From IMG/VR virus record IMGVR_UViG_3300025437_000011, positions 1-64,000 of that record: DNA of 64,000 nt. One strand, 5' to 3'. The translations under genes were made by a program, and so were the position numbers. How positions within the stretch are numbered: the first letter of the stretch is position 1; the number at the start of each line of letters is the position of its first letter. The DNA is from a virus. Of this stretch, positions 19,471 to 27,861 are shown one piece after another. The notes below the pieces were generated by a model. The model was not told the DNA's origin. It did not search any database and saw nothing but the letters and a program-made list of their open reading frames with translations.

Positions 19471-22400
19471 ATGTCTACAACCGCAGAAGTCAAAATTTCA
19501 GTAGATACAAGTGCAGCAGAGCGCTCTGTAGATGCTTTGTTTAAAAAAGAACGCACGTTAAATGTAAATGTTAAGGGTGGCCAACCACTAGGAAGAATTA
19601 CCGGAGATTTAAGCGAGTTTGATAAGTCAATGGCGGCGGCCAATGCGCGTGTTATCGCTTTCGGTGCTAGTGCTAGTGTTGTGTATGGAATTGAAAAGGC
19701 TTTTCATTCACTGATTGATTCTACTATTGAGGTACAGAAGGCACTAAATCAAGTTCAAGTTATCCTAAATGCTTCGGATAATCAAATGACTAAATTTGGT
19801 TCAAGCTTATTTAATGTTGCAAAACAAACCGGACAAACTTTTGAAACTGTTGCAGAGGCGGCAACCTTACTTTCTCGTCAGGGATTAGGAATGGAGGAAA
19901 CTCTAAAAAGAACAAATGATGCTCTGGTTCTTTCTCGTATTACTGGCATGGATGCGGCAAAGAGTGTTCAGGCACTAACTGCGGCTGTTAACTCGTTTAC
20001 TTCACAGGCCGTAACTGCTACTGAAGTTGTTAATAAATTTGCTACAGTTGATACGCAGTTTGCTATCGGTGCAAAAGATTTGCCAGAAGCTCTTGGCCGC
20101 GTTGGATCTTCTGCGGCTCAGGCTGGTGTTTCACTAGATCAACTTATTGCGCTAGTTACTGCAGCACAGGTTGCCACGGCTCGTGGTGGTGCAGTTATTG
20201 GTAACTCATTCAAAACAATTTTTACAAGATTAGATAGACCAAAAACCCAAAGCTTATTGGAGAGCATGGGTATTAAGACTACAGATGAAAATGGTAAAAT
20301 CAAGGGAACAATTGAATTACTACAAGAACTTGCCAAAAGCTATGATACATTAAATAGAACCCAACAGGCTCAGGTAGCAGAAAAGGTTGGTGGCGTTTTC
20401 CAGATTAACATTTTAAAGGCAACTCTTGCCGACTTAAATAGAGAATATTCTGTTTATAATAACGCATTAAGGGTTTCTCAGGGCGCAACTGACGATGCGT
20501 ATAAAAGAAATGAGGCCCTAAATCAGACTTATTCTTCACAGTTAAATGCGCTTAAATTAAATGCTACGCAATTAGCGGCCACGGCTGGCGAATCTTTGTT
20601 TGGCCCATCCATGAAGAAGTTGATTGGTGGGGGCAATTCTCTTCTTGGGGGTTTGAATGAAGCAGATTCAAATAGTGTCGGCTCAAAACTGGGTAAGGGT
20701 ATTATGGATGGCCTTGGTCAGTTTATTGCCGGGCCGGGTCTAGCTTTAATTGGCGGTGTTTTAGTTAAGCTATTAGCGGACTTTACAAAATTTGCGGCAA
20801 GTGGGGCGAAAGATTTATTGGGTCTAAATAATGCTGCCAAAGACCAAGAGGCGCTACAAAAAAGTATAACAGAAATTTTATCCAAAGACCCTTCAATTTA
20901 TAAACAGATTGAAAGTGGTGCTGCAAGTGTTAATGAGGTTGCGACTAGACTATTGGCAAATTTAAAATTACAGACGGTAGAGCTTGAGTTACAATCAAAG
21001 CTTTCTGCCGAAATTGCCGCTCAAGCATACGGCGGGGGCGCAAGAATTGGACCGGGTGGAGTTCCAAGAGTTAAAGCGGCTGGAGGCTATATTCCGCAGT
21101 TTGCCGAAGAAGAGTCGATGGCGAGAAGTATGGGTGCTGGAAGTGATGTTCGTGCAATGTGGGGTAAGGGCACGATTGGTGGTCAGCCGTTCATAATGAA
21201 CAATAAGGAAAGGGAAATTCCAAATTTTGGTGGTAGTGGTGACTCTGCTGTTATTCCTAGATATGCTGGCGGGTGGGTTCCAAATTTTGCTGATTATAGA
21301 TTAGAAATAAATAATCTGGGAAAAGGGGGTGCAACTTTAGCTAAGTTAATAGGGATTGATGGGGGAGGCACTCCTTGGGGCGACAAAGGTACAAATATTA
21401 AAAGTGCATTAGATCAGATTAATAAGGGAAGGTTTAAAATTAGTGATGGCGATATAGAAAAACTAAAATCACTAAAAGATAGTCAAGTTGCAAATAGGCC
21501 ACCCACAGAGGTAAAAGATAATGGCGAACCTGGTAGTATTACGGTTTCTGGGGGGCAGGGCGGTAGTGAAAAAACGGTAAATTTTGATAATTATGATCTT
21601 GCTAATATAGATGAAACAATAGCAAGTAAGTATGGTGTATTTACCCCAACTGGGGGGCAAGTCGGCATCCAATCAAAACAAAGGGTTAGTGAAATTTCTC
21701 GCCTAAAAGGCTTAAGAGTTACAGGACATTTAGTAACTAGGTTGCCAGGTAAATCAATCTTTCCCCTAAATATTCCTGAGGGTGATTTTGATAAAGTCAT
21801 GGATCAAGCTTTTTATCCTCCTGTTAGACAGGTTGCAGGATTGGTTGCGAAATCATTTCAACCAATTGGAAAAAAAACGTCTCAAGAGGCAATTATTAAA
21901 GGTATTGAGGAGAATGTTCTTACTCCAGCGGTAAAGGGAAGTCTTTTTGAAAAAATTCTAGGAGCAGCCTCTGTTAAATCATCTGAAATTTTTGCTAAGT
22001 CAAATGATATTAAAAAAGATCAAGATGCTTTTGATTATGATCCAATTGCAAATTATCCGTATTTACAAAAGGCACTAAACATATCGGTAGCTGGTGAAGC
22101 TAAAAATTCATTAGACGCAGCTCATAATCTTCCAGGAAAGATTTTAAGAAAAGATTCTGCTGTATTAGAGGCTTTAAAAACCAAGATTTTAAAAGCAACC
22201 GAACCACAGAAAAAGGCGGCTGGTTATATTCCAAATTTTGCCGACGCGCTACATGAATCCATTGCTCGTGAAATTGGCGCTGGAGCGCCGAGTGGCGGAA
22301 TCTACGTTAAACAGTATTCTGAACTCGCCGGGGCTAATAACCCGATGGGATTGGGCGTTTTTAACTCTCGTGATGAGGGTTCACCATCAAAAGAAAGGGG

Positions 22401-25400
22401 CGCGATTCGCCGCAAGGGTTATGCCGCTGGATATATTCCTAACTTCGCAGATGACAGTTCTGGATCTAATTCTTCATCTTATGCAGCGGTCGGTATTGAG
22501 CTTTCTGGACTTGCTACCATGTTGGCGTTTGGTAGTAATGGGATTAGAGAAGAGTATCGAAAACAAATTCAGACTATTTCTGCAGCAAATAAAAATATTT
22601 CCGAAGGATCTTTGAAGCTTAAGGCTGGACTTGCCGCAGGAGGATCTAATATTGCTCTGGCCGTTTCTACTCTGGGGCCAATTATTACTAGCACGATTGC
22701 TAATAATATAGACCAATCTACAAAGTCTGGAAGAGGTTCTGCATCAGCCACTAAGGGTATCGGAGATATTTTAAGTTATGGCGGAACTGGTGCAATGATT
22801 GGAACAGCTATTGAGCCGGTCATAGGAACTGGAATTGGTGCTGTTGCTGGCGTGTTAGTTGGTTTAACTACAACAATTATGGATGTTGGTAATCAACTAA
22901 AAACTGATATACCAGAATTAGAGGCAGCATTTAAAAAAGCTAGTGAAAACCAAACTCAAATACAGCAGCAGTCTACTAATATAATCCAAACTGCAACTGA
23001 ATTAAAAGAATTAACAGAAGCTAATAAGCCTGAAAATGCTGAGAAAATAATTGCAACAAAAGCAAAACTAACCGAACAGATTTCTTCATATACTGGATCA
23101 GCAGATAGGGCCACATTAATTAGTGATTCCGTAGGTAATATAGAAAAATTAGTAGCAGATTTTGCAAAAGATAGAAGAAATTCAGCAGACCAAACCGCCA
23201 AAGCTAGAGCAGAGGCGGACGTGGCTGCCGAATTAAATAAGGGAAAATTTTCTGGGCCATTTGGTGGTGGTGTTGGCATTACTAATTTTGAAAAAACTGC
23301 AGCGCTTGGGAATAGGGAAGCTATGGCTGGGGTTAATATGACTGTAGAAAATATACAAAAAAGACTAACCATTCTTGATTCTGCCAGTCGTGCAAATGAA
23401 AATAGCTCGCTAAGTGTTAAAGCTGTAGCCGAAATTGCTGGAATAAGTGGAGTAAATTTTGAAAATTTTAAAGATCAGTATGAAACTCAGGCCCAACAAA
23501 GAGCCGCGCTTGCCCTATTAGTTCGGGATGAGATTAACCAAAAGCAAGAAGATCTGAATAGCGCCCAACAATTAAATAAACAACAGCAGGAAGCTGCGGA
23601 CGCGGCTGCAGCTGCGGCTGCTGCCCAGCGTCAAATTGTTGAAAAAGATCGTAATTATGTAGCGGCTTTAGAAGAGGCGATAAAAGCTGCGAAGTTTAAT
23701 ATAAGCTTTGGTCAAGAGCGTAGGGTGGCTAGGGCAAACCAGATTGCCGAAATGGGATTTGGTGGGGCGGGACTACAAGATCAAATTGCCAATATTTTTA
23801 GTGGAACCATTGGTAAGGCACGGGCAGAGGCGCCGTTAGATTTGGAGCAAGAAATTTTAAAGTCCATAGGAAAAGAGGGTAATCCAGCTAACTTAACAGA
23901 TGAGAAAATGAGGGCAATTATGTCCGAGGCGCTTAAACCGGAAAATACGAAAGGAGGCGTATATAATGCAAATGCTATAGCTAATAGTATTGGCGCGTCT
24001 GAGGAATTTTTAGCGGTGCATTCTGAAGATAAAGATAAGGGTCTTAAAGCAATATCAGATTTACAAAAAGCCATTGAAGAGGGTAAGTCAAAACTATATG
24101 ATGCACAGCGCGAAGCCACTACTCTATCTGCTCAAAAAATTGATGAATTAATAAGAGTTAATTTCGCTGGTCTAGACAGAGTTGGTGGAGGAATCGAGTC
24201 TGTACTGAGTTATAAAAACCCATCACAAACAGGAGATGATGTTGCCAAAGCAGTTAGGGACTATAATTTAATTTCGAATTCAAAAACTGCAAATTCCGCA
24301 GACATATCTAAAGCAATTTTAGATGTGATGGATAGCGTTTCAAAATTGACTGGTGGCGCGTCAGTAATGACTACAAGTGACCAACTATTTAAAGATTTAA
24401 CAGTAGGAATTAAAGACTCATTATCAAAGAGTTATGATATTGGAGAATCAAAGTTAATGAGTATGAAGGGTGGTGAAGGTATAGTTCGAGCTATTGAGAA
24501 AGATTTATTAGAGCGAACTGGGGAAGTTGATAGAAATAAGGCATTGGCTGATATTGCCGAATATAGTGAAGCAAAAAAACATAATGTTGAAGATACTACG
24601 GGTTTAGGATCAAGACTTTATAATCAAGTTCTTAACGAACAATTAGAAAAATTTGAAAGACTTTCTTCGAGAAATAATGCGCCAGAAATGACTTCTGATA
24701 CAAAGGCTGCAATAGAATTAGCAATTAAAAGTGGCGCGACAACGGGAGCAAAAGATGCAACTGCTGCGCAGATGATAGTTAGTAACGCACAGGATGCGAC
24801 GGCATTTAAGGATATTAATCAATTTCATAATGACTATAATACTAAGACAGATAAGCAAATAGATTTACTAAGAAAGATAGCAATCAATACTCAAGAATCG
24901 GCTGCAGCTGGTAAACCTAGTACAACAGTAACCGTTCCAAGCTCGCATGCTGCTGGATATGTTCCTAATTTTGTTAACTCTACCATTGAAGAATCTTTGG
25001 CTCGTTCATTGGGCGCTAAAAATCCGCGCGCACATTATGGAAGAGGTCGAATAGGTGGAAAGCGTTTCTTAATGAATAGCGAGGAGATGGAGATTCCAAA
25101 TTTTGCAGGGGGGCCTGATTCGGCTGTTATTCCGATGTATGCAGATGGAAACCTTCCGCTCGAAATGATAGATTTAAGTAAAGTAAAAACTAAATTTGGT
25201 ACTTATTATAATCCAAAAAAGTCTGGCTTGGGAACTCGTGGAAAATTTAGTGGATTAAATTTTGGAACAGAAGAAATGTCGGAGTATGGCTATAATACTA
25301 CATATACCAAAGATATAAAAATAAATAAAGAGTTATTTAGTTCAAATTTAAGCTCCGATAAATTTTCTTTACTTGAAAAGTATACACCAGCAGAATTGCG

Positions 25401-27861
25401 TAGATTTGTAGCTGCACATGAAGCACATCATGCGAGTGGAGATATTAAAACTAAACCGATTTTAACAGAATTATATAATTCTAGTGAAACATTTGCAAAT
25501 TTTCAAGGGGGTTTTTCGGCACCTAGGGGCGCGAATGCCATACAAAGAATTGGCAGTGGAATTTCTGCTGTAATTGATTATTGGAATGATCCTAGAACAT
25601 TAGATCATTATGCAATGGCAAAATCAGAGAGATTTAAGAGCGCTAGGGGTCATTTATCTAGAATGACAGGCCCTTACGCGGATGAGTATTATGATTTAAA
25701 AAAACCACTTTCTGATACTGAGAAAAAATTACTGTATTTATTTAGTAAAAAATGGGCAGAATTCAATTCGGGTGGAAAAGGTGCATTTATAAATAGAGAT
25801 GCCAATCTTATTACGAATTTAGAGGAGTCTGCGGGTAAGATTTTATCTGGCAAAGCTTTGAGTAGTTTTTTGGGTAATAGTGTAAAGGGTGCCGGATTGG
25901 TGGCTGGAGATGTATTGGGATTATTAGGTAGTGTGCCGGGACAAATACTTGGTGGAGCGGAATCAATGGGGGACGCAACTGCAGATACATTTATAGAAAG
26001 AGAGCGCGACAGGCGGGAGAAGGCTCAAGGTGCGGCAATGGCAGCTGCAATCTCTAGGGAGATAGCTGGCGGCGCTCCAGCTTCTTCTATCTATACAAAA
26101 TCATGGGATCAACTTAAAAATCCATTGAACCCTATGGGTTTGGGGGTATTCAATAGTCGTGATGAGGGGTCTCCTTCTTCGGAATTAAACGCTATTATTA
26201 AAAAGGGTTATGCGGTCGGGCATATTCCTAATTTTGTTAAAGAGGATGAGGATAAAGAGGAGGCGGCTAGGAGAAAAAAGGTTCAGGAAGACCTCGCAGA
26301 TTATGGGAAGTGGGATACCACTCAGGAGACCGCATTTCTCTTCCGCGGGCGACAAGTCATATTTGAGAAAGCGGCGGAAAAGCGTGACGTCGAACTTATG
26401 AAAGAAGCGGACAAACAAATGTCTGATGAATTAAATAAGGGAAAATTTTCTGGGCTTGCCGGATGGCTTGGTATGGGTACTGGTATTGATAATGTTGAAA
26501 AAGTTGCAAAAATTGGGAATAGACGAGAAATGGCTGGAATTGCTCCGACTGTGGAAAATATACAATTAAGACTAAAAAAGCTAGAATGGGTAGAGAACAT
26601 GTTAAATATCATAGACGAGGTCAAAAAAGATAATCCAAACGCGTTCAGCGGGCGCGACGGCGCGCAGCGAAGGGCCGAATTCGATATCGGGGGGGAGGCA
26701 AGGGGGCTTGGATTGAATGCTAAAAATAATATGAATTTGGCACGTCAGAAAGGATCTGATCATGAATATTTGACCGAACTGAATCTATTGCTTCAAACCG
26801 AGATCCTACAAATGCAAAAACTCTTGGATGAAACTGAAAAGAAAAATAAGGATGAGAAGCAGAGACGGCCTTCAGTATCTACAACTCCACCGTCAGCCGG
26901 GGTGGCGGGACGACCTTCGATATCTATAACTCCACCGTCAGCCGGGGTGGCGGGACGACCTTCGATATCTACAACTCCACCGTCGAGCCCTTCAACATCT
27001 ATAATACGAGATGCTATAACAGCGGCCTCGCTACCAACCACAAGCGCTGTACAAAGTAATATTCCCGCGAGTGTTTCAGATAAAGATGCGGCTAGAAACA
27101 CGGCGATAGATAATCGAATATCAGAATTACCAATAATACAAAATACGACACGAAACAGGTTACCACAGCATAAAAATCCGGAAGATTTTCCTTGGTCTCC
27201 TACTCAAGGTGGTCTACATTCAGGCAATAGGGCGGGCCGTCTTGGTTATCATATGGCGCATAGAAATGATTCTCAAATCGGCCCGGAAAGTCAAGAGTCA
27301 ATCGAAAATAGAGAATTACGTAATAAACGTTTCGAAATAGAACGCCTGATGACGATTAGAAATCACGCTATGCAAACTGGTAATGTGGGTTTAGTTAACC
27401 AAATAGATACAAATAAGGGAGATTTAAATCAAGCATGGAAAGATATAAAAGATGAGGGTATAAGAAAAAGAAAAGAAAGAGAACCAGAGCCTGATGCATG
27501 GGTGCAAGAGGCGCGACAGGCGCGAGAGCAAAAGATGCAAGGTGCAATAGAAGACAAGGCGCGTAGATTTTTACAAGAAAGAGGCAGTCCAGAACAAATA
27601 GAAAATTTCAACAAAGCACATCCAGATAATAAAATAGAAAAAAATAATAGTGGAAAAACAGCGGGTGCTCATGTTCCTATTACAATTAATATAGCTAACT
27701 CATCTAAGGAGTTTGCTCAGGGTCTTGCGGCTCATGTTGAAAAGCATGCCAAGGAATATGTAGAGAAACATATGAGCCAAACAAAGCAAATTGCTGCGAA
27801 TGCCGCCAAAAAAGATAATAGTCTATACGGCCCACCAATGGGTAATAATAGAAATGTATAA
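19471..27861 (+). CDS. tail tape measure protein with duplicated modules and inserted enzyme-like domains
   Basis: 2796 residues. About 45-300 match the phage tape-measure core (DLSEFDKSMAAANARVIAFG, AATLLSRQGLG, LGRVGSSAAQAG, GNSFKTIFTRL). A hydrophobic stretch lies near 415-440 and a Gly-zipper membrane-like stretch near 1103-1140. Block A (about 536-610 and 1825-1893), block B (about 915-995 and 2190-2258) and block C (about 1253-1310 and 2319-2375) each occur twice in the order A-B-C. Six GY(I/V/H)P(N/Q)F-type motifs mark A and B. Between A1 and B1 lies a PD-(D/E)xK-like segment (E827, D857, E876-x-K878); between A2 and B2 lies HEAHH (1983-1987). A Pro-rich tandem repeat sits at about 2471-2510. 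The protein sets tail length and is ejected ahead of DNA; AAGGA precedes the ATG. Confidence 0.92.
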   Translation: MSTTAEVKISVDTSAAERSVDALFKKERTLNVNVKGGQPLGRITGDLSEFDKSMAAANARVIAFGASASVVYGIEKAFHSLIDSTIEVQKALNQVQVILNASDNQMTKFGSSLFNVAKQTGQTFETVAEAATLLSRQGLGMEETLKRTNDALVLSRITGMDAAKSVQALTAAVNSFTSQAVTATEVVNKFATVDTQFAIGAKDLPEALGRVGSSAAQAGVSLDQLIALVTAAQVATARGGAVIGNSFKTIFTRLDRPKTQSLLESMGIKTTDENGKIKGTIELLQELAKSYDTLNRTQQAQVAEKVGGVFQINILKATLADLNREYSVYNNALRVSQGATDDAYKRNEALNQTYSSQLNALKLNATQLAATAGESLFGPSMKKLIGGGNSLLGGLNEADSNSVGSKLGKGIMDGLGQFIAGPGLALIGGVLVKLLADFTKFAASGAKDLLGLNNAAKDQEALQKSITEILSKDPSIYKQIESGAASVNEVATRLLANLKLQTVELELQSKLSAEIAAQAYGGGARIGPGGVPRVKAAGGYIPQFAEEESMARSMGAGSDVRAMWGKGTIGGQPFIMNNKEREIPNFGGSGDSAVIPRYAGGWVPNFADYRLEINNLGKGGATLAKLIGIDGGGTPWGDKGTNIKSALDQINKGRFKISDGDIEKLKSLKDSQVANRPPTEVKDNGEPGSITVSGGQGGSEKTVNFDNYDLANIDETIASKYGVFTPTGGQVGIQSKQRVSEISRLKGLRVTGHLVTRLPGKSIFPLNIPEGDFDKVMDQAFYPPVRQVAGLVAKSFQPIGKKTSQEAIIKGIEENVLTPAVKGSLFEKILGAASVKSSEIFAKSNDIKKDQDAFDYDPIANYPYLQKALNISVAGEAKNSLDAAHNLPGKILRKDSAVLEALKTKILKATEPQKKAAGYIPNFADALHESIAREIGAGAPSGGIYVKQYSELAGANNPMGLGVFNSRDEGSPSKERGAIRRKGYAAGYIPNFADDSSGSNSSSYAAVGIELSGLATMLAFGSNGIREEYRKQIQTISAANKNISEGSLKLKAGLAAGGSNIALAVSTLGPIITSTIANNIDQSTKSGRGSASATKGIGDILSYGGTGAMIGTAIEPVIGTGIGAVAGVLVGLTTTIMDVGNQLKTDIPELEAAFKKASENQTQIQQQSTNIIQTATELKELTEANKPENAEKIIATKAKLTEQISSYTGSADRATLISDSVGNIEKLVADFAKDRRNSADQTAKARAEADVAAELNKGKFSGPFGGGVGITNFEKTAALGNREAMAGVNMTVENIQKRLTILDSASRANENSSLSVKAVAEIAGISGVNFENFKDQYETQAQQRAALALLVRDEINQKQEDLNSAQQLNKQQQEAADAAAAAAAAQRQIVEKDRNYVAALEEAIKAAKFNISFGQERRVARANQIAEMGFGGAGLQDQIANIFSGTIGKARAEAPLDLEQEILKSIGKEGNPANLTDEKMRAIMSEALKPENTKGGVYNANAIANSIGASEEFLAVHSEDKDKGLKAISDLQKAIEEGKSKLYDAQREATTLSAQKIDELIRVNFAGLDRVGGGIESVLSYKNPSQTGDDVAKAVRDYNLISNSKTANSADISKAILDVMDSVSKLTGGASVMTTSDQLFKDLTVGIKDSLSKSYDIGESKLMSMKGGEGIVRAIEKDLLERTGEVDRNKALADIAEYSEAKKHNVEDTTGLGSRLYNQVLNEQLEKFERLSSRNNAPEMTSDTKAAIELAIKSGATTGAKDATAAQMIVSNAQDATAFKDINQFHNDYNTKTDKQIDLLRKIAINTQESAAAGKPSTTVTVPSSHAAGYVPNFVNSTIEESLARSLGAKNPRAHYGRGRIGGKRFLMNSEEMEIPNFAGGPDSAVIPMYADGNLPLEMIDLSKVKTKFGTYYNPKKSGLGTRGKFSGLNFGTEEMSEYGYNTTYTKDIKINKELFSSNLSSDKFSLLEKYTPAELRRFVAAHEAHHASGDIKTKPILTELYNSSETFANFQGGFSAPRGANAIQRIGSGISAVIDYWNDPRTLDHYAMAKSERFKSARGHLSRMTGPYADEYYDLKKPLSDTEKKLLYLFSKKWAEFNSGGKGAFINRDANLITNLEESAGKILSGKALSSFLGNSVKGAGLVAGDVLGLLGSVPGQILGGAESMGDATADTFIERERDRREKAQGAAMAAAISREIAGGAPASSIYTKSWDQLKNPLNPMGLGVFNSRDEGSPSSELNAIIKKGYAVGHIPNFVKEDEDKEEAARRKKVQEDLADYGKWDTTQETAFLFRGRQVIFEKAAEKRDVELMKEADKQMSDELNKGKFSGLAGWLGMGTGIDNVEKVAKIGNRREMAGIAPTVENIQLRLKKLEWVENMLNIIDEVKKDNPNAFSGRDGAQRRAEFDIGGEARGLGLNAKNNMNLARQKGSDHEYLTELNLLLQTEILQMQKLLDETEKKNKDEKQRRPSVSTTPPSAGVAGRPSISITPPSAGVAGRPSISTTPPSSPSTSIIRDAITAASLPTTSAVQSNIPASVSDKDAARNTAIDNRISELPIIQNTTRNRLPQHKNPEDFPWSPTQGGLHSGNRAGRLGYHMAHRNDSQIGPESQESIENRELRNKRFEIERLMTIRNHAMQTGNVGLVNQIDTNKGDLNQAWKDIKDEGIRKRKEREPEPDAWVQEARQAREQKMQGAIEDKARRFLQERGSPEQIENFNKAHPDNKIEKNNSGKTAGAHVPITINIANSSKEFAQGLAAHVEKHAKEYVEKHMSQTKQIAANAAKKDNSLYGPPMGNNRNV
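21076..21294 (+). repeat. tape measure block A, copy 1
   Basis: Encodes GYIPQFA, then SMARSMGAG, IGGQPFIMN, EIPNFGGSGDSAVIP and GGWVPNFA. It is the partner of copy 2 at 24946-25150, with matching order and about the same length. Confidence 0.8.
22216..22455 (+). repeat. tape measure block B, copy 1
   Basis: Encodes AAGYIPNFA, SIAREIGAGAPSGGIY, NPMGLGVFNSRDEGSPS and a second AAGYIPNFA. Partner of 26044-26244; the peptide NPMGLGVFNSRDEGSPS is identical in both. Confidence 0.85.
23230..23400 (+). repeat. tape measure block C, copy 1
   Basis: Encodes ELNKGKFSG, then GNREAMAG and VENIQKRL. Partner of 26428-26590. The first 27 nt are identical in both copies, which suggests a fairly recent duplication or conversion. 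Confidence 0.8.
24946..25150 (+). repeat. tape measure block A, copy 2
   Basis: Encodes AAGYVPNFV, ESLARSLGAK, IGGKRFLMNSEE, EIPNFAGGPDSAVIP. It immediately precedes the HEAHH-bearing insert. Confidence 0.8.
26044..26244 (+). repeat. tape measure block B, copy 2
   Basis: Encodes AISREIAGGAPASSIY, NPMGLGVFNSRDEGSPS and AVGHIPNFV. It closes the insert that contains the metallopeptidase-like motif. Confidence 0.8.
26428..26590 (+). repeat. tape measure block C, copy 2
   Basis: Second copy of the ELNKGKFSG ... GNRREMAG ... VENIQLRL block. The flanking DNA, from about 26270 and again at 26640-26720, is clearly richer in G+C than the rest of the gene. Confidence 0.8.
26881..27000 (+). repeat. 45-nt tandem repeat, Pro-rich, 2.7 copies
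   Basis: Two almost identical 45-nt units (26881-26925 and 26926-26970, differing at one base by eye) plus a partial third encode TTPPSAGVAGRPSIS. The high-identity, GC-rich repeat in an AT-rich gene suggests recent slippage expansion. It encodes a flexible linker. Confidence 0.88.

Follow-up and report, generated by a model that had tools for sequence, protein, structure and literature searches.

The tape measure protein of this phage carries a domain, lying between two blocks with GYIPNF-type motifs, whose conserved residues form a putative active site and which has a fixed place in the protein and a near-universal presence in GYIPNFA-bearing relatives. The best explanation, which we consider probable by a modest measure, is a divergent metal-dependent PD-(D/E)xK-type nuclease (residues ~690-915) that is a fixed part of the family between its A and B blocks and would be delivered at genome entry.

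The stretch of DNA analysed (the window, 64,000 nucleotides) belongs to a viral record of 108,475 bases. An ORF at 19471-27861 (+) is open over its full 2796 aa, and its product is a tape measure protein: in this very long frame, the curated model TIGR01760 scored 131 bits against a cut-off of 28.8, and PF10145 also matched. The TIGR01760 match delimits an N-terminal tape measure domain (residues 73-401; 19687..20673, +), which is present in most relatives. It is followed on the same strand by a segment that is hydrophobic by hydropathy (residues 411-444; 20701..20802), the A1 block with its GYIPQF and GWVPNF motifs (residues 538-608; 21082..21294), the nuclease-like domain as outlined by the relatives' profile (residues ~690-915; 21538..22215; best conserved core 798-898), the B1 block with GYIPNFA at both ends (residues 917-992; 22219..22446) and a second hydrophobic segment found by hydropathy (residues 1108-1140; 22792..22890). 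Further downstream, also on the plus strand, lie an A2 block with a GYIPNF-type motif (residues 1828-1900; 24952..25170; 56% identity to A1) and a B2 block (residues 2185-2257; 26023..26241; 62% identity to B1). Profiles of the A1 and B1 blocks found their counterparts in relatives, and GYIPNF-type motifs start in the window protein at residues 538, 600, 917, 986 and 1828. Elsewhere in the window, Pfam recognized a ribonucleotide reductase, a RecA-like protein, a DnaB helicase, a GDP-mannose dehydratase and glycosyltransferases; PHROG searches gave no match for ten structural-region proteins adjoining the tape measure.

The sequence-only reading had placed a possible PD-(D/E)xK core, made of Glu827, Asp855 or Asp857, and Glu876-x-Lys878, between the two GYIPNF-bearing blocks, and these coordinates check out. 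The stretch KGSLFEKILGAA begins at residue 822 and contains Glu827 (21949..21951, +), FDYDPI begins at residue 854 and contains Asp855 (22033..22035, +) and Asp857, and ISVAGEAKN begins at residue 871 and contains the (D/E)xK motif Glu876-Ala877-Lys878 (22096..22104, +). PD-(D/E)xK nucleases are recognized in sequence by the signature E...D...(D/E)xK...(K/Q). Conservation was scored in 150 distinct homologous cores from environmental viral contigs, gathered with motif-weighted profiles and freed of identical stretches alone. The residue equivalent to 855 was Asp and that equivalent to 878 was Lys in 150 of these 150 cores; position 876 used Asp and Glu almost equally (78 and 72), position 827 was Glu in 144 cores and Asp in six, and position 823 was Gly in 149. 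In the next helix, position 890 (22138..22140, +) was Lys in 124 cores and Gln in 25, which together make 149 of the 150, and is our candidate for a helper residue. These E, D, (D/E)xK and K/Q columns are near-invariant in an otherwise very divergent domain, with a mean column identity of just 14% and 23% in the wider alignments. Two relatives that are close to the window domain (L097 and L036) are 42% and 46% identical to it. Asp857, proposed as an alternative catalytic residue, varies freely across the 150 cores, and Ala replaces it in both of the closest relatives; as it is not conserved, Asp855 is the candidate.

The domain alone, used as a query, found no relative in viral contigs or deposited phages. 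It was a scan for the DNA pattern of GYIPNFA that opened up the tape measure family after the domain-only searches: at least 119 viral-contig stretches contained the pattern, a long ORF bearing the motif was present in most of the loci retrieved, and two more scans with alignments brought in ~160 further loci. All homologues were thus first reached through GYIPNFA, so that our counts apply to GYIPNFA-bearing tape measures. The domain profile was built on trimmed seeds, since earlier seeds reaching into the B block had drifted onto GYIPNFA.

To check for bias, 144 non-identical tape measures were picked by the N-terminal domain and B block only, leaving the motif unused. The motif was intact in 142 of them, 131 as direct profile matches and 11 more on inspection. 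A helix Glu, an Asp and a (D/E)xK motif with both Asp and Glu in use were present in members found without the motif as well. This retention makes the putative nuclease a core domain of the tape measure family and not a one-off insertion; a cargo specific to this one phage is ruled out by the same relatives. The earlier proposal is supported as to an E/D/(D/E)xK active-site constellation inside the tape measure, and is changed in that the domain is no occasional cargo. At the level of sequence, the motif conservation is more than chance, it has the pattern of an active site, and the nuclease-like domain is a near-universal part of this GYIPNFA-bearing tape measure family of uncultured tailed phages.

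Some members depart from the common pattern. In two of them (L186 and L025) ExK is present, shifted in the automatic alignment. The domain of L101 (tape measure ORF, residues 1162-1235) apparently lacks the Lys of (D/E)xK and is possibly inactive, and L110 (residues 645-850) is the sole tape measure of the 144 without a trace of the motif, with another sequence between its blocks. Five tape measures (L018, L070, L091, L115, and L159) have two nuclease-like domains each.

The structure prediction and profile search proposed with the sequence-only reading gave two confident models and no PD-(D/E)xK match from either. The AlphaFold models, both built on shallow alignments, covered window residues 680-925 (76 sequences; pLDDT 86, pTM 0.81) and the homologue L054 (77 sequences; pLDDT 82, pTM 0.70). 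They share one order of elements: both begin with strands, which are followed by helices, the Glu helix and the Asp; after a further helix come the ExK strand and a final helix. Glu827 is placed in a helix and residues 874-877 in a strand. The predicted topology is not the textbook one, in which a β hairpin separates the Glu helix from the (D/E)xK strand; no such hairpin is seen. Foldseek revealed no credible relative of either model (best E 1.1 and 0.27), and the best VIA-align hits (Z 3.3 and 4.6) had short coverage or poor rmsd. No PD-(D/E)xK structure was among the rows of these fold searches, which held chance-level Ras-like GTPases, phosphatases and others. Pfam and PHROGs had no informative match to the domain, NCBIfam had none over the domain part of the protein, and the PDB sequences returned chance-level rows only. 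HHalign comparisons with small Mrr_cat and PDDEXK_1 sets and a GNAT control were not significant, the Mrr set being weak and including at least one row (L294) that is probably in the wrong frame; the best local pairings, likewise not significant, involve the Glu helix and the DxK motif.

The absence of fold and profile matches and the predicted topology weigh against the preferred reading; that the fold searches listed no PD-(D/E)xK structure is not taken by us as evidence against the fold. The E/D/(D/E)xK constellation of the supposed core is kept, with Asp/Glu exchange, in divergent homologues; the fold around it has found no structural match and has an untypical topology. The active-site claim rests on conservation, and the PD-(D/E)xK fold is a candidate whose resemblance to the superfamily lies in the conserved motif. 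An unlikely reading, yet one to be taken seriously, is that the domain is another metal-dependent enzyme of unrelated fold, such as a phosphoesterase or a nucleotide-acting enzyme, which converged on this motif. The missing fold and profile matches and the unusual order of strands and helices would fit such an enzyme. Against it, the exchange of Asp and Glu before x-Lys, the Glu helix with a Gly four residues earlier, and the Lys or Gln in the next helix are what would be expected of the PD-(D/E)xK superfamily.

The common order in the family is N-terminal domain, A block (near residues 540-640), nuclease-like domain and B block. In relatives the nuclease-like domain lies mostly at residues 700-1060, and mostly within ~100 residues upstream of B. 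A hydrophobic segment comes shortly before the A block in 105 of 108 tape measures, and one lies within 300 residues downstream of the B block in 59 of the 108; only two have one inside the cassette.

The second A/B pair of the window protein (24952-26241) frames a different, unrelated and zincin-like module with a HEAHH motif (residues 1983-1987; 25417..25431, +), for which neither Pfam nor NCBIfam had a match. HExxH motifs were seen in just three of the tape measures examined (the window, L203, and L144) and are absent from most GYIPNFA-bearing relatives in the part of their sequence that was seen. One relative (L203:4459-6006, residues ~1030-1545) combines a GNAT domain (PF00583, over cut-off), HEASH and a nuclease-like domain in one chain. 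It is possible that the HEAHH module cuts at GYIPNF. The tandem copies and extra enzyme-like modules of some members fit a delivered multi-enzyme protein.

For the delivery, metal use, substrate and target of the putative nuclease we infer the following. Its active site would consist of Glu827, Asp855 and Glu876-x-Lys878, with Lys890 as helper. During assembly the domain would lie within the tail lumen. Once the tail has opened, the tape measure would exit with or ahead of the DNA, as tape measure biology implies, and its hydrophobic segment would then insert into the membrane. The nuclease would thereby be exposed at the entry site, where it may cut nucleic acid, whether host DNA, RNA or a competitor genome. 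A DNase set free in the producing cell would put the phage genome itself at risk, which is a point against this scheme; since the tape measure is made inside the infected cell, the enzyme would have to be silent before ejection or unable to cut its own phage DNA.

The domain could instead be a nuclease or nucleic-acid binder that serves the virion or its assembly rather than acting on the cell, for example by holding or trimming the genome end in the tail. Its near-universal presence at a fixed place resembles a core function, and a weapon would be expected to be lost or exchanged more often. The tandem copies and additional modules described above look more like delivered effectors, however, and two of the 144 relatives have lost the domain or its Lys, so that it can be dispensable; we regard a role confined to the virion as rather improbable. 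Much less probable still is a fold kept for structural reasons in the tape measure, with the motif as a relic without catalysis. Both the catalytic activity and the fold of the domain are predicted only, which would leave room for a relic, but no positions of this very divergent domain are better conserved than the charged residues, and a relic would lose them first. That a disordered linker resembles a nuclease motif by chance, an idea for which nothing but the shortness of the motif speaks, is barely credible, being contradicted by the conservation in the 150 homologues, by the 142 tape measures that keep the motif and by the confident AlphaFold model.

The preferred reading, a divergent PD-(D/E)xK-type nuclease, has the helix Glu, the Asp, the (D/E)xK motif with its D/E exchange and the Lys/Gln position in common with the PD-(D/E)xK superfamily (e.g., Mrr_cat, PF04471, and PDDEXK_1, PF12705). 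It differs from that superfamily in having no detectable profile or fold similarity to it, and in the tape measure models the Asp and the (D/E)xK strand are separated by a helix, and the Glu helix comes after the other strands. With TP901-type tape measures (TIGR01760) the family shares the N-terminal domain and great length. It differs in its A-nuclease-B cassette, for which tblastn searches of 50,697 deposited phage records, within their sensitivity, revealed no counterpart, one of them giving only rows at chance level (E about 0.3).

There is a precedent for a nuclease carried by a tape-measure-related protein. Tme, the tape-measure-related effector of a contractile injection system of Streptomyces davawensis, has a C-terminal EndA-type nuclease with DRGH and H-N-N motifs (PMC11126660). 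The likeness is that of a nuclease on a tape-measure-like protein of a tail-like machine (PMC11126660); the nuclease is of a different type and C-terminal there, whereas the domain described here is internal, has another signature and belongs to phage tape measures. The polyvalent proteins of phages and conjugative elements are very large and presumably delivered; they combine several enzyme domains, zincin-like peptidases and GNATs among them, and the peptidases have been suggested to process the long polyvalent chains (Iyer et al., 2017; PMC5512222). The nuclease domains described there include other types, such as ParB-like DNases, and the word 'tape' is absent from the paper (PMC5512222). 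As for several catalytic domains in one chain, the window protein has the nuclease-like domain and the HEAHH module, both by motif only. SNIPE, a host membrane nuclease with a GIY-YIG domain, cuts phage DNA and meets the tape measure at injection, and the tape measure of phage lambda was found adjacent to the inner-membrane protein ManZ during injection (PMC13190303). SNIPE resembles the case proposed here in that a nuclease acts at the point of tape measure entry into the membrane; it is a host defence, whereas the nuclease-like domain here belongs to the phage. Among the open-licence papers searched, we came across none that describes such a domain within phage tape measures and none linking GYIPNF to a tape measure.

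A broader picture, which we offer tentatively and consider doubtful, is that a whole group of uncultured tailed phages has a nuclease in the membrane-proximal part of the tape measure, first exposed at the site of DNA entry as a mirror image of SNIPE, and that the A and B blocks form a socket that may also take zincin and GNAT domains.

The conserved residues in nearly all relatives suggest that, in a whole virus group, an enzyme is part of the ruler that exits the tail along with the DNA. The roles commonly ascribed to tape measures are those of ruler and pore former. If almost every member of a family had a conserved active site, its tape measures would also be delivered enzymes, and the function of the first phage protein ejected into the cell would become directly testable. 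As no profile library searched recognizes the domain, the architecture itself, a hydrophobic segment followed by A block, enzyme and B block, would allow other uncultured phages to be searched for such enzymes.

Bacterial genomes were also searched, with no match to the domain in 395 genomes of one phylum in a search that had no positive control. A GYIPNFA scan of all genome contigs revealed 12 places, two of them in ORFs of tape measure size, of which one (L125) has the domain and the other (L133) gave no domain match; apart from these two, the places where GYIPNFA matched bacterial genome contigs are close to what chance would give. The motif is frequent in the tape measures of uncultured phages.
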